From NCBI RefSeq assembly GCF_000423865.1, contig NZ_AUIU01000013.1, positions 1-64,000 of the forward strand: DNA of 64,000 nt. The letters run 5' to 3'. Within the stretch, counting starts at the first letter, position 1; each line of letters opens with the position of its first letter. Positions 41,856 through 47,502 of this stretch are shown here, piece by piece. The position numbers and the translations under genes are program-made. The notes below the pieces were generated by a model. It was given only the letters and a program-made list of their open reading frames with translations. It had not been told where the DNA came from and ran no database searches. This DNA is from Thermodesulfovibrio thiophilus DSM 17215 (GTDB lineage Bacteria > Nitrospirota > Thermodesulfovibrionia > Thermodesulfovibrionales > Thermodesulfovibrionaceae).

Positions 41856-43100
41856 TTAAAGATAGATCAATTCATCGTTATAATATTGAGAAATAAAAAG
41901 CAAAAGGTAATCCTTTAAATGTCTTGTTATTAGAAAATTCTGTTTTACATGGGAATGGCCATTTTTACCGAGCCATTTCGCATATTCAGGATTTGTCAGT
42001 AATGTTCTTATTGCATAGGCAGCACCCTCAATTGAATGACATAGCAGTCCTGTAAGTTTATTTTTCACTTGAAGCAGTATTCCACCCACAGCAGATGCCA
42101 CAACTGGCTTTCCTTTCCATAGAGCCTCTGTAACAGTCAATCCGAATCCTTCTTTAATTGATTTCTGTACAACCACTGTTGCAATTCTCTGCAAAGCATT
42201 TATTTCAATATCACTGTCTGGAGGTAAAAGAAGAATATGTATATCAGGGTTGTCTTTTGCTATTTCCTGTACCTCTGCAAGCACTTTGTCTGATTCAGGA
42301 TCATCTGTTGCAGTTCCTCCTGCAAGAATGAGCTGACAGGGCATGGTTCTTCTCACCATTTCAAATGCTTTAATCACTCCAACAGGATCTTTGAGATAAT
42401 CAAATCTTGACACCTGCAAAATTATGGGCTTCTTTTTGTCAATACCATACTTTTCAATGACAGCGTTAATTTGTTCCTCTGTGAGTTCTCTGTTTTTATT
42501 ACTGAGTGGGTCTATTGATGGATATATGAGAAACATTCTTAATGCAAGCATTTTTGCAAAATTTGGAGCTGAAAAAACAGTGGCATCATATTTTTCAACA
42601 TAGTTTTTTATAAAATTCCAGACTGTTTCATCGGGATTTGATATATCTATATGACAGCGCCAGATCCATTTTTCTCCTATTTCATTTCTTTTCTTAACAA
42701 GTGCCACTGGCTGAGGATCATGCACAAAAATTATATGCTCGGCAAATTCTAAGGCTTCCGCGTTTTTTCTGTTTATCTCAAGGAAGTATTCAAATTCTTC
42801 CTCTGTAAACATCTCTTTTCTTCCATGAAGAGCATTATGAAACTTTTTTGTTATATTGAAAAATTCAGTATCTCCCTTGATTACACTCCATCTTGCATCT
42901 ATGCCAAGTTCATTCAGAAATGGAACCATTCTTGAAAGTATTTCAGCAACTCCACCACCTATATATGTAGAGTTAATGTTCTGAACTGTTTTGCCTGAAA
43001 GTTTATCCGCTAGAATTTTTAACTCTTCAAGAGATGATTTTCCAATTATTGGCTCATAATCTCTTAACTTCGGTTTAATTGATTTAATTTCTTTATCCAC
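41856..43100 (-). CDS. treT: TreT-like trehalose synthase (GT4 glycosyltransferase)
   Basis: The protein (about 414 residues) is a GT-B glycosyltransferase with TreT hallmarks: NSTYIGGGVAEILSRMVPFL at the N terminus, HDPQPVALV, WRCHIDISNPD, then the donor side QVSRFDYLKDPVGVI, QKSIKEGFGLTVTEALWKGKPVVAS. TreT joins an NDP-glucose donor to free glucose to form trehalose in one step. I prefer the GTG at 43100 (GGAG 7 nt upstream, overlapping the mscS stop) over the ATG at 43118. It is the last gene of the trehalose operon, giving a second route next to OtsAB. Confidence 0.83.
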   Translation of the reverse strand: MDKEIKSIKPKLRDYEPIIGKSSLEELKILADKLSGKTVQNINSTYIGGGVAEILSRMVPFLNELGIDARWSVIKGDTEFFNITKKFHNALHGRKEMFTEEEFEYFLEINRKNAEALEFAEHIIFVHDPQPVALVKKRNEIGEKWIWRCHIDISNPDETVWNFIKNYVEKYDATVFSAPNFAKMLALRMFLIYPSIDPLSNKNRELTEEQINAVIEKYGIDKKKPIILQVSRFDYLKDPVGVIKAFEMVRRTMPCQLILAGGTATDDPESDKVLAEVQEIAKDNPDIHILLLPPDSDIEINALQRIATVVVQKSIKEGFGLTVTEALWKGKPVVASAVGGILLQVKNKLTGLLCHSIEGAAYAIRTLLTNPEYAKWLGKNGHSHVKQNFLITRHLKDYLLLFISQYYNDELIYL

Positions 43101-44490
43101 TTGCTGTCTCCATTTCAAGATGATTTTCTATTATAGATACTAACTTTTCTCTTATACCCTCAATTGTGTGCATATAAGGATCAATGCTCATGATTTTTTC
43201 AGCAAGCTCTTTTTCTTCAAAGCTTTCACTTAACCACAATGAAAAATCATTGGAAATTTTACCAAGTCTTAATTTCGCTTCATATATGTGGAAAAATAAA
43301 GAGTTCAAGCTTATAAATTTCAGAATCTGTACAAATTCCCTCAGGTCATGAGCAACATAAGCTGTGGGCATAACCGCTCCTACTGATTTAATGAAATGAA
43401 ATTCTTCTCCTTCTTCACAGTTTTTATCGTGTGGATAGTTGTTAATATATTCATCTATTATATCCGCTATCCTTTTTCTTATTTCTCCAATGCTTGAAAA
43501 CTCAAAAATATCAACTGTAGAAAGTTTTTCTGAAAGAATATCATACCCCAGCACATTTCCAATCCATAAAGCAAACTCATTTGATGGCTGTGAGATAAGA
43601 TAATGATACTCTTCCATAAAATCATGAGTATGATAAAAGATAGCAGAATCCGGTGCTTCTTTTATGTATTTTAATAGTTCCTTGAGATTTTTTGCTTTTA
43701 AGCCTGTCAGCTCTTTTATATTAAGTCTTGTGTAAAATCTAAAAGGTGCTTTCGCTCTTTTGGGTGGTTTCCTAAGAATCTCTAGTCTAGTTTTAATCAG
43801 TCTGCCATTAGGAATAAAGATTATTTTGTCATCAAATGTTTTTATCTCTACATGTCTCCATGTTGTATTTATCACGGTTCCCTCTTCTGCAGTTTCAAGT
43901 TTTATATAGTCCCCTTTTTTAACTATCTCATTATTGATTATTTCAAAACCTGCAATTAAATTTGAAATTTCGTCTTTAAAAACAATCAATACTACTGTGC
44001 ATCCAAGCAGTATGAAGATAAAAAATGGAGTGGTTGGAAAATGCCAGATTTCAAATAGAATTAATAGTCCAATTGCTATAAAGCATATTGTCAGAAAAGT
44101 CTTCAATCTTTGAAATGGTTTAAATAACGGTTTCTTAACCTGATTAGAATATAAATTTAAAATACCGATGCTTATCCTGTGAAGAACGTATATTAAAGAT
44201 AAGAAAAACAGACTTAAAAGCAATCTGCAAATGGCAATATATATAGAGCCCTTAACAGGAGATATTTCTATTGCTGTATATGCACCCAGAATCAAAATAC
44301 AGTAAAATGCAAATATTGTAACGTTTTTGATTAAAAGCTCTTTGCCCTGCCATTTTACAGCTTTAAGTTTTGTATTCACATAGCTGGGAACAAGTTTGAA
44401 GCGTAACCAGAAAGCTAAAATTGTAAAAGAAAAAAATACAATGAATGGAACAAAAACAGATAACCAGTTTTTTTCAATCCATTCAAACAT
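43093..44490 (-). CDS. MscS-family mechanosensitive channel within the trehalose operon
   Basis: The 465-residue protein has about five N-terminal membrane helices (to about residue 175) and the MscS core: NLIAGFEIINNEIVKKGDYI, EGTVINTTWRHVEIKTFDDK, IIFIPNGRLIKT. A soluble C-terminal part of roughly 230 residues follows, longer than in E. coli MscS. MscS channels release small solutes on osmotic downshift. Its start overlaps otsB by 8 nt and its end overlaps treT, so channel and trehalose enzymes are made together. Confidence 0.88.
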   Translation of the reverse strand: MFEWIEKNWLSVFVPFIVFFSFTILAFWLRFKLVPSYVNTKLKAVKWQGKELLIKNVTIFAFYCILILGAYTAIEISPVKGSIYIAICRLLLSLFFLSLIYVLHRISIGILNLYSNQVKKPLFKPFQRLKTFLTICFIAIGLLILFEIWHFPTTPFFIFILLGCTVVLIVFKDEISNLIAGFEIINNEIVKKGDYIKLETAEEGTVINTTWRHVEIKTFDDKIIFIPNGRLIKTRLEILRKPPKRAKAPFRFYTRLNIKELTGLKAKNLKELLKYIKEAPDSAIFYHTHDFMEEYHYLISQPSNEFALWIGNVLGYDILSEKLSTVDIFEFSSIGEIRKRIADIIDEYINNYPHDKNCEEGEEFHFIKSVGAVMPTAYVAHDLREFVQILKFISLNSLFFHIYEAKLRLGKISNDFSLWLSESFEEKELAEKIMSIDPYMHTIEGIREKLVSIIENHLEMETASG

Positions 44491-45253
44491 TAAACACCTC
44501 TTTCAGGGTTGAAAGAAATTTATAAATTTCTTTCTGATTTTTTAAATAATAAATCGCCTCTGTATTTTTTGAATGACCTATCCTCACAGCCAATCCTGTA
44601 TTTTTAATTGCTTTAAAAACTGTTTCATCAGTTTTATCATCACCTATAAATATTGGGAAAAATTTTTTATTAAAATAGTTTATTATAAATAATACAGCTT
44701 TTCCCTTATCCCAATCAACTGCTGGCATGACTTCAAAAACCATTTTACCTTTCAATATTTTTATTTTTTCTTGATTGAAATCTTTTAAAATTCTGAAAAA
44801 CAATTTCTTTAGATTGTTTCTCTGTTCAGGTAAAACTCTGCGATAATGTAATGTGAAGGAAAAGGCTTTTTTCTCAACAAAGACATCTTTAAAATCCCGC
44901 ATTGCCTCTATAAGTCTTCTATAAATTCTATCAATCAAAGGTTTGATTGTTTTAGCTTCCGGGTGAATGTATTTTATATTTTCTCTCTCTATCTCTAATC
45001 CATGACTGCCACTGTAATATATGCCATGAATTAAAACTCTTCTTTTTATGTCCTCTAGGTCTCTACCACTGATTATTCCTATTTTTATTTTATTTTGTAT
45101 GCTTTCAAGTACGGTTTTTATATCAGGTGATATGTAACAGTTTTCTGGATTTTTCTGTATAGGAACCAGAGTTCCATCAAAATCAAAAAAAAGAAAAATG
45201 TTTTTATCTCTTATACTCTCAATCCATGCTGATTTAAAAAGATACTCTGCCAA
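44483..45253 (-). CDS. otsB: Trehalose-6-phosphate phosphatase
   Basis: The 256-residue HAD-family enzyme has motif I FLFFDFDGTLVPIQKNP, motif II IGIISGRDLEDI, the ISGSHGLE-like YYSGSHGLEIE, the cap strand/helix region, and motif III FIGDDKTDETVFKAI. It removes phosphate from trehalose-6-phosphate. It lies 1 nt after the otsA-fusion stop and overlaps mscS by 8 nt. A 3'-end region with several lysine-rich helices is normal for the family. Confidence 0.93.
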   Translation of the reverse strand: MAEYLFKSAWIESIRDKNIFLFFDFDGTLVPIQKNPENCYISPDIKTVLESIQNKIKIGIISGRDLEDIKRRVLIHGIYYSGSHGLEIERENIKYIHPEAKTIKPLIDRIYRRLIEAMRDFKDVFVEKKAFSFTLHYRRVLPEQRNNLKKLFFRILKDFNQEKIKILKGKMVFEVMPAVDWDKGKAVLFIINYFNKKFFPIFIGDDKTDETVFKAIKNTGLAVRIGHSKNTEAIYYLKNQKEIYKFLSTLKEVFNV

Positions 45254-45254
45254 A

Positions 45255-47486
45255 TTATAACCTCACAAGAGATGATATTAAATCCTTTGTCCATCTATAA
45301 ATATTTCTTTCCTGAACAATATGTCTCATTTTTCTCATTCGTTGTTTTTTTTCTTCTATATCCATGTTCAAGGCCTGATATATTGCATCTGCTATGCTTT
45401 CAATATCATATGGATTTATAATTATCGCATCCTTGAGTTCACGAGAAGCTCCAGCAAACTGACTTAAAATTAAAGCACCTCCTTCATCATCTCTTGAAGC
45501 AATAAACTCTTTTGCAACAAGATTCATACCATCATGAAGTGATGTTACCATGCACAGATCAGCTATTTTATAAAAAGGTAATATCTTTGAGTGAGGATGA
45601 TGACCCTTTAAAAACACGATGGGTTTATAATTTTTATTATGAAACTTCCAGTTAACTCTGTCAGCAGTTTCCTCAATTGATTCCATAATCTCCCGGTATT
45701 GCTTTATATGGGTTCTGCTTGGAGAACCAAACTGTATTAAACTGAATTTACCGATAAATTGAGGATACTTTTCAAAAAATCTTTCAATACCAAGAAATCT
45801 TTCTAGTATTCCCTTTGTGTAGTCGATTCTGTCAACGCCAACTCCTATGTACTCCGCCATTATGCCGAGCTCTTTAAGTAGTTTTTCTCTTAAGTCAGTT
45901 AAATCTGAACCATCAGCAAAATTCTCCACACTTACACTTACTGGAAAAGGTTTAACGGTTGTTATATGCCCTCTTCTTTCTATTGAAAAATGTTCCCAGT
46001 CTATCTTGGATTCAAGAAATCTATCAACTGTATCAAGAAAATTGTTGCAGTAAAACTGTATGTGAAAACCTACAAGATCTGCTCCAAGCATCCCAATTAA
46101 AATCTCTCTTGCCCATGGGCATATACCGAATACTTCAGGATTTGGCCATGGAATATGCCAGAATAAAGCAATTTTTGCATCAGGTCTCTGTTTTCTTATA
46201 AGCAACGGTACAAGAGCAAGATGATAATCCTGAACAAGCACGAGAGGAGATTCCTCATCTTTTATTGCTTCAATTAAAGCGGTAGCAAATTTTTCATTCA
46301 CTCTCTGATACTCTATCCAGTCATCCGTCCTGAAAACAGGACGAACATATGTTATATGACATAATGGCCAGAGTCCTTCATTTGAAAAGCCATAGTAGTA
46401 TCTTTTCTCTTCATCTTTTGTAAGCCACACTCTTTTCAAAGTATAGGCAGGTTTATCTGGAGGAACTCTTATTGTACCATTTTTATCAACAACATCTCTA
46501 TCAGCATCTCCTGCTCCATGGGCAATCCATACGCCATCACAGGCTCTCATCACAGGATCAAGAGCTGTAACAAGTCCTCCAGCTGGAATAATACATTTTA
46601 TATTTTCTCCCTCTCTTACATGTATGTAAGGTTCTCTATTTGAAAGCAGGAACAGTTTTTTGTCTCCTAATTGTTCTTTTATAAATTCTTTAAGGCGCTC
46701 AGCAGTCCAGTAAGAGTCTGTTCCTGCTTTTAAACGTTCTTCTTCTTCAAGATTTGCTTTTACCATTGATAAGGTTTTAACAAGTGTAGTAACCTCATCA
46801 ACAAGTGGAGCGAGAATGTCTCCTTTTACAGGTATATCTGATGATTCTTTTATTTTCCCACTTCGTAATTCCTTGAGCCATTCAGCCATCCGGGCTACAG
46901 GTCCTGTAATGCTCCAGCGAATTATCAAAATTGATATTGCTACAATTGACAGAGTTAATGCTAAAAGACGAATGATATTCTGTTTCCATATATCTTTAAT
47001 CCTTATATCAATATATGAAGCATCTTGAAAAAGCGCAAGAGCGCCTATTAATTTCTCCTCTGTAGTGCTTTCTGAAAAAAGTGGAATTACATAAATATAA
47101 ATTTTTTCATTGTGAAGTTTTAAGATTTTTAAAGAAGGAAGTTTATCAACAATGGTGTTTACAACTTCTACTGGTGTTTTTGAAATGCTTGCTTTAAGAT
47201 TCGAAGTTAGAGAAATAATATTACCAGAAGCATCATACACTGCAATACCTTTTAATCTTTCTCGATTGTCAAACTTTTCTACTATACGATTTAAACGCTC
47301 TATCTGACCTGTCTCAATAAGTGTAACTATTGACTCTTTAAGACTTTCAGCAACAATGATACTTCTTCTTACGAGATCAGCCTGGAGTCTGTTTTTCTCA
47401 TCTTTAATCTGAATTGCCGAGAATACTACAATCACGAGAGAAATACCTATGAAAAGAGAAATAATAATCCTGAGGGTCAATTTCAT
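45255..47486 (-). CDS. otsA: Trehalose-6-phosphate synthase fused to a membrane sensor (two TM, periplasmic domain, HAMP)
   Basis: This 743-residue protein has two parts. Residues about 1-250 form a sensor: TM1 (about 4-24), a ~145-residue extracytoplasmic Cache-like region (with GIAVYDASGNIISLT), TM2 (about 170-190), and a HAMP-like segment (ITGPVARMAEWLKELRSGKI). Residues about 270-740 are a complete GT20 OtsA: LFLLSNREPYIH, AGGLVTALDPVM, VQDYHLALVPLL, FWHIPWPNPEVFG, VDRIDYTKGILERF (conserved Arg/Lys) and SLHDGMNLVAKEF. I start at the second ATG (47486), because TGTTATAAT overlaps the first. It makes trehalose-6-phosphate at the membrane face and heads otsA-otsB-mscS-treT. Confidence 0.92.
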   Translation of the reverse strand: MKLTLRIIISLFIGISLVIVVFSAIQIKDEKNRLQADLVRRSIIVAESLKESIVTLIETGQIERLNRIVEKFDNRERLKGIAVYDASGNIISLTSNLKASISKTPVEVVNTIVDKLPSLKILKLHNEKIYIYVIPLFSESTTEEKLIGALALFQDASYIDIRIKDIWKQNIIRLLALTLSIVAISILIIRWSITGPVARMAEWLKELRSGKIKESSDIPVKGDILAPLVDEVTTLVKTLSMVKANLEEEERLKAGTDSYWTAERLKEFIKEQLGDKKLFLLSNREPYIHVREGENIKCIIPAGGLVTALDPVMRACDGVWIAHGAGDADRDVVDKNGTIRVPPDKPAYTLKRVWLTKDEEKRYYYGFSNEGLWPLCHITYVRPVFRTDDWIEYQRVNEKFATALIEAIKDEESPLVLVQDYHLALVPLLIRKQRPDAKIALFWHIPWPNPEVFGICPWAREILIGMLGADLVGFHIQFYCNNFLDTVDRFLESKIDWEHFSIERRGHITTVKPFPVSVSVENFADGSDLTDLREKLLKELGIMAEYIGVGVDRIDYTKGILERFLGIERFFEKYPQFIGKFSLIQFGSPSRTHIKQYREIMESIEETADRVNWKFHNKNYKPIVFLKGHHPHSKILPFYKIADLCMVTSLHDGMNLVAKEFIASRDDEGGALILSQFAGASRELKDAIIINPYDIESIADAIYQALNMDIEEKKQRMRKMRHIVQERNIYRWTKDLISSLVRL

Positions 47487-47493
47487 TAATTGC

Positions 47494-47502
47494 ATTATAA
47501 CA
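47494..47502 (-). promoter_or_regulatory. Extended -10 (TGTTATAAT), otsA operon, leaderless type
   Basis: Reading leftward, TGT-TATAAT ends 7 nt before the ATG at 47486 and contains the upstream ATG (47495), which therefore cannot be in the mRNA made from it. No Shine-Dalgarno is present. Confidence 0.6.

Follow-up and report, generated by a model that had tools for sequence, protein, structure and literature searches.

An OtsA-type synthase behind a Cache-HAMP-like receptor module in Thermodesulfovibrio thiophilus

Whether a receptor module at the head of a trehalose-6-phosphate synthase controls the enzyme is the question raised by a locus of Thermodesulfovibrio thiophilus DSM 17215, which we analysed within a stretch of 64,000 nucleotides (contig NZ_AUIU01000013.1, positions 1 to 64,000; hereafter the window). 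Cache-HAMP inputs drive kinases, cyclases, phosphatases, second-messenger enzymes and chemotaxis, and here such an input appears to precede a glycosyltransferase of primary metabolism. We regard the receptor-synthase architecture itself as near certain. Its occurrence in many relatives, with an apparently single origin, suggests that outside conditions control trehalose synthesis in these bacteria without the usual signalling relay, and it seems to us fairly probable that here a Cache-HAMP-like receptor, perhaps one that reports the osmotic or envelope state, gates a membrane-bound trehalose-6-phosphate synthase.

The coding sequence lies on the minus strand at 45255..47486 and encodes 743 amino acids from a conserved Met. 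The longest minus-strand open reading frame extends slightly further (45255-47495, 746 amino acids, ATG at 47495), and residues are numbered throughout from the ATG at 47495. As nearly all homologues begin at residue 4 of this frame (MK..., base 47486), we take 47486 to be the likelier start; the interval proposed in an earlier note on this DNA, 45255-47486, is open on the minus strand and its end coincides with the conserved Met. A plus-strand reading of the interval was ruled out by its many stops, and a chance or assembly-error fusion because dozens of independent genomes encode full-length homologues. The gene is the only one with a GT20 domain in this genome, which is 99.8% complete. A scan for promoters and terminators gave signals no better than those in shuffled sequence.

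Architecture of the receptor-type synthase

Hydropathy places one transmembrane segment at residues 10-28 (TM1; 47412..47468, minus strand) and another at residues 174-192 (TM2; 46920..46976, minus strand), both at the same position in 35 of 35 homologues. Between them, residues 29-172 (about 144 residues; 46980..47411, minus strand) are assigned to a single extracytoplasmic Cache domain on the basis of models and fold matches. The AlphaFold2 models of the full protein (35 homologues; mean pLDDT 83.4, pTM 0.62) and of its N-terminal 272 residues (47 homologues; pLDDT 85.4, pTM 0.63) contain a long helix at residues 2-62 that includes TM1, a Cache/PAS-like sheet at residues 81-158 and a second long helix, starting at residue 160, that includes TM2. 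Structural comparison of the outside domain (Foldseek, VIA-align) gave the extracellular domain of WalK/YycG as the best match (4ywz; Z 15.3, 2.4 Å, 136 residues), with 7dud and 5is1 at Z 14.9, and KinD, DctB, CitA and chemoreceptor Cache domains after WalK/YycG. A sequence profile of the N-terminal module also placed YycG/WalK at the top of the PDB (E 4.5e-4). The protein has the makeup of a Cache sensor domain, an extracytoplasmic Cache/PAS-like fold enclosed by two transmembrane segments. The earlier note had read an N-terminal transmembrane segment, a Cache-like domain of about 145 residues and a second transmembrane segment from the letters alone, and had called for structure prediction and a domain search of this part; hydropathy, the models and the WalK match agree with it, and the predicted structure shows the two-TM, Cache, HAMP-like architecture.

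Cache domains such as those of CitA, DctB and KinD bind small ligands. Their presence among the best fold matches would suit a receptor that detects a specific outside small molecule (e.g., a sugar, organic acid or fragment of the envelope) instead of the osmotic or membrane state, with control of the enzyme unchanged. The nearest match is WalK, however, and the sensor has few conserved polar residues, so that no ligand pocket can be named from sequence. We rate detection of a small molecule at somewhat below an even chance, an estimate that overlaps with the one for receptor gating, as the two are not mutually exclusive.

TM2 is followed by a HAMP-like segment at residues 193-245 (46761..46919, minus strand), assigned from a sub-threshold Pfam match, helix-connector-helix models and alignment with kinase HAMP domains, and then by a helical linker at residues 246-280 (46656..46760, minus strand; model and alignment) with invariant W263 and L268. 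The Pfam HAMP model (PF00672) scores 12.8 bits at residues 192-242, under its cut-off of 25, and matches 7 of the 35 homologues with E values up to 0.5 (best 7e-4). The region aligns with the above-threshold HAMPs of related kinases and is modelled as a helix at residues 199-211 (AS1), a connector and a helix from residue 228 or 229 to 260 (AS2 and linker). The wording of the earlier note, which spoke of a "HAMP-like" segment, is therefore right, upheld by the kinase alignment and the model, with the Pfam cut-off missed. Model confidence is low in the connector (213-228) and in the linker (251-259), which counts against gating by the receptor, as do the sub-threshold HAMP match and the loss of the proline box in one sub-clade.

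This proline box reads ITGP in the window-type clade, and it is lost together with four AS1 residues in a sub-clade that includes family f29. In the alignment rows L063, L064, L065, L070, L082 and L123-L126, the box and the four AS1 residues are gone and the next helix is exactly seven residues shorter. Counted from P230 (AS2) to the invariant W263, the linker spans 34 residues in 34 of 47 proteins, 27 in the nine-member sub-clade and 32-33 in four others. A step of exactly one heptad would leave a putative coiled coil in register, as coiled-coil coupling would demand, though it happened only once.

When the window protein was used as the query in genomes of the same order, sensor proteins matched parts of residues 2-280 (E 1e-7 to 9e-4). 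Ten of these matches were scanned, namely nine histidine kinases (one of them truncated by the limits of the contig segment read) and one HD-domain protein, and all ten have a HAMP above the Pfam cut-off. Because the N-terminal part is homologous to these TM-Cache-TM-HAMP inputs, we consider the module a kinase-type input; the likeness to histidine-kinase architecture claimed earlier is thus borne out by fold, homology and conservation. Cache-HAMP histidine kinases with a WalK/YycG-type input resemble the window synthase in TM-Cache-TM-HAMP order, in fold and in sequence, but their output is a kinase, whereas here it is a sugar-nucleotide glycosyltransferase and the HAMP has diverged. Pfam detected neither a kinase nor a methyl-accepting output domain in the chain, and GT20 stands alone after the linker.

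The GT20 (OtsA-type) catalytic domain occupies residues 281-743 (45267..46655, minus strand; Pfam and PDB alignments). It scores 412.7 bits against PF00982 (cut-off 32.5) and covers profile positions 3-471 of 473, and residues 277-743 align with trehalose-6-phosphate synthases in the PDB (phmmer; 5jij, E 6e-79). The motifs GGLVTAL, YYxGFSN..LWPL, QDY, HIP, VDRxDYTKG, PSR and DGMNLVAKE are in register with solved trehalose-6-phosphate synthases, and most donor- and acceptor-site motif positions are invariant across 35 homologues. The domain is accordingly complete with its catalytic motifs intact, as had been stated before. Solved OtsA enzymes (GT20; E. coli and Mycobacterium thermoresistibile) have the same catalytic domain, motifs and fold, but are soluble and about 450-500 residues long, whereas in the window synthase a membrane receptor module stands ahead of the enzyme.

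Trehalose-6-phosphate synthesis, the OtsA function, is our best guess for this domain. Its score against the OtsA equivalog TIGR02400 is 430.9 bits, below the NCBI cut-off of 564.85, and the synthase is therefore left out of that equivalog. The missed cut-off would favour another product, e.g., glucosylglycerol phosphate, in place of trehalose-6-phosphate. We find this very improbable, as the model for glucosylglycerol-phosphate synthase scores lower (312.8 bits versus 430.9 for the OtsA type), on which ground that identity was rejected, and as otsB adjoins the synthase gene here and lies nearby in 25 of 30 receptor-type loci with flanks.

Distribution, origin and selection

The receptor-type synthase family is widespread. 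Within the same order, 24 of 176 genomes encode the full-length protein and two more encode part of it, while in 18 the match is confined to the GT20 part; those of the latter that were examined have soluble OtsA-OtsB fusions. Among 396 sampled genomes of the phylum, a further 74, all of family f29, have matches (695-744 bits) that reach into the N-terminal module; the two transmembrane segments were checked in five of these genomes. Three MAGs labelled Deltaproteobacteria carry a homologue with 58-59% identity, and full-length matches occur in 25 of 297 sampled genomes from the phylum of one of them. The two genome samples share no genomes, therefore this second phylum differs from that of the window.

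In a tree of 89 GT20 domains, built by a quick method and midpoint-rooted, one branch (SH-aLRT 98) separates all 48 receptor-type proteins from the rest and another (SH-aLRT 99) sets apart the 18 OtsA-OtsB fusions, which fits a single gain of the receptor-synthase architecture, now present in at least two phyla. Receptor-type architecture in every GT20 protein of these bacteria was considered and rejected, since the GT20 proteins of sister families include soluble OtsA-OtsB fusions and soluble OtsA that fall elsewhere in the tree. The soluble OtsA-OtsB fusion (TPSP) found in DUF5752-TreT cassettes of the same order has the same neighbours as the receptor-type genes and a homologous GT20 (42-45% identity), but it is without transmembrane segments or a Cache domain, has OtsB fused to it and forms a separate clade. 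Altogether, the earlier note had recognised the architecture and its kinase-type input, and had missed both the wide family of single origin and the gene neighbourhood.

Both sensor and linker show purifying selection (dN/dS roughly 0.1-0.25, with dS near saturation in most pairs). The rate of change in the sensor is about double that in the enzyme, which counts against receptor gating. As the fastest-evolving part of the protein, and with a HAMP that is degenerate in one sub-clade, the N-terminal part could instead be a mere anchor that holds the synthase near OtsB and the neighbouring channel and TreT-like enzyme described below, i.e., a metabolon with no gating. This is the main rival of the receptor-gated reading. 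For an anchor, however, one helix would suffice, whereas the Cache fold, two transmembrane segments, the HAMP-like linker and near-fixed segment lengths are kept in two phyla; anchoring accounts for the membrane location but not for the preserved Cache fold or the near-fixed segment lengths, and we consider it unlikely.

Gene neighbourhood and the possible signal

The synthase gene heads a tightly packed run of four genes, all on the minus strand. It is followed by otsB, for trehalose-6-phosphate phosphatase (44483..45253; PF02358 136.8 bits; TIGR00685 155.4 bits, above cut-off), which begins one base beyond the synthase stop and is overlapped by a gene for an MscS-type mechanosensitive channel fused to DUF5752 (43093..44490; PF00924 48 bits; PF19027 206.5 bits). 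This is one of only two MscS-family genes in the genome. The last gene encodes a TreT-like GT4 glycosyltransferase (41856..43100; PF21269 195.2 bits; NF041139 379.8 bits, with the cut-off at 775) and overlaps the channel gene from a GTG start at 43100, its longest frame being 41856-43118. In the 30 receptor-type loci with flanks, a TreT-like gene lies nearby in 13, DUF5752, alone or fused, in 14 and MscS in 10. The f29 loci have otsB only, without channel and TreT neighbours, which counts against the receptor-gated reading. In sister families, DUF5752, TreT and the soluble OtsA-OtsB fusion follow one another in consecutive order.

DUF5752, a family with no assigned function, makes up the C-terminal part of the window channel and in other genomes stands as a separate gene beside a TreT-like one; a role in linking the channel with the enzymes of trehalose synthesis is possible. 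No mention of it was found in the open-licence literature searched. In two receptor-type loci, otsB is replaced by a gene resembling those for low-molecular-weight phosphotyrosine phosphatases (L067:8337-8741 and L068:8186-8665, both plus strand; PF01451, 73.7 and 63.5 bits), possibly as a stand-in trehalose-6-phosphate phosphatase.

A comparable cassette is the msc-gt-tpsp operon of Thermoproteus tenax, where channel, glycosyltransferase and TPSP occur together (PMC3634074). Its synthase activity requires the glycosyltransferase and is activated by complex formation with that neighbour, and its authors propose synthesis at times of stress and release via the channel (PMC3634074). The operon and the window run both encode a mechanosensitive channel, a GT4-type glycosyltransferase and trehalose-6-phosphate synthase and phosphatase together; in T. 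tenax, the synthase is fused to the phosphatase and the paper describes no receptor module (PMC3634074), whereas in the window they are separate genes, with a receptor on the synthase and DUF5752 on the channel. Activation of the T. tenax synthase in a complex with its neighbour lends weight to the N-terminal part being an anchor (PMC3634074).

In one protein of 722 amino acids (L090:1184-3349, minus strand; G305:C1), an MscS core (transmembrane segments, beta-domain 163-225) is joined directly to GT20 (253-718). This fusion is alone among the 396 genomes of the phylum and independent of the Cache-type fusion. As a single case it is a pointer rather than proof; it hints that membrane tension and trehalose synthesis may be connected, and it counts for the receptor-gated reading. 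Together with the mechanosensitive channel in the operon, it points to tension and weighs against a small molecule as the signal. Likewise, the neighbourhood of otsB, the MscS-DUF5752 channel and the TreT-like gene makes an osmotic or tension-related signal more plausible, and such a signal is what we would guess.

Proposed receptor gating and its implications

The intact GT20 domain, the fixed places of the transmembrane segments, the Cache fold, the kinase homology, purifying selection, the heptad step, the lack of a second GT20 gene in the genome and the tight operon, with similar neighbours at homologous loci, all count in favour of gating. The GT20 domain would lie in the cytoplasm behind the two-TM Cache-HAMP-like receptor, with the Cache domain outside, after the pattern of the homologous kinases. 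An external or membrane change (in osmotic or envelope state, or in a ligand that tracks this state) would move the Cache domains and transmembrane helices of a dimer, and the HAMP-like segment and helical linker would pass this movement to the GT20 domains and alter their activity. OtsB, encoded next door, would finish trehalose, the MscS-DUF5752 channel would let the solute out on down-shock and the TreT-like enzyme would open an alternative route or serve as a partner. In this scheme, we infer the trehalose-6-phosphate synthase activity, the topology, the dimerisation and the transfer of the signal to GT20. The sensor would control the synthase allosterically; as the chain holds no kinase or receiver domain, control without a phosphorelay follows from the architecture.

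With a primary metabolic glycosyltransferase as its output, a receptor of this kind would, if the reading is true, control the metabolite directly, with neither second messenger nor phosphorelay nor transcription in between. The system would also be simple to reconstitute, with one protein and one assay, for the study of how an enzyme is gated through a HAMP-type linker and of how these bacteria match trehalose to their osmotic state. It is tempting to speculate, though we lean against so broad a claim, that these proteins form a class of one-component osmosensors, in which a transmembrane Cache-HAMP receptor has a compatible-solute enzyme as its output and unites sensing and synthesis in one polypeptide, encoded in many genomes next to a channel that may let the solute out, in at least two phyla and probably including the nitrite-oxidising Nitrospira lineage.

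The enzyme, the input module and the cassette are each of a known kind. For their combination, a compatible-solute synthase as the output of a Cache-HAMP receptor, the open-licence literature searched gave no match, which is weak evidence that none exists, and it held no paper that brings together a HAMP domain, trehalose and OtsA. Papers on Nitrospira and on a Nitrospirota magnetotactic bacterium mention trehalose genes and no sensor domain, and the literature examined labels such genes plainly otsA. Two other GT20 proteins (L101:170-2677 and L121:468-2420, both plus strand) have N-terminal extensions of about 350 and about 155 residues, respectively, with no Pfam match and no predicted transmembrane segment; these are either further variants or over-extended frames.
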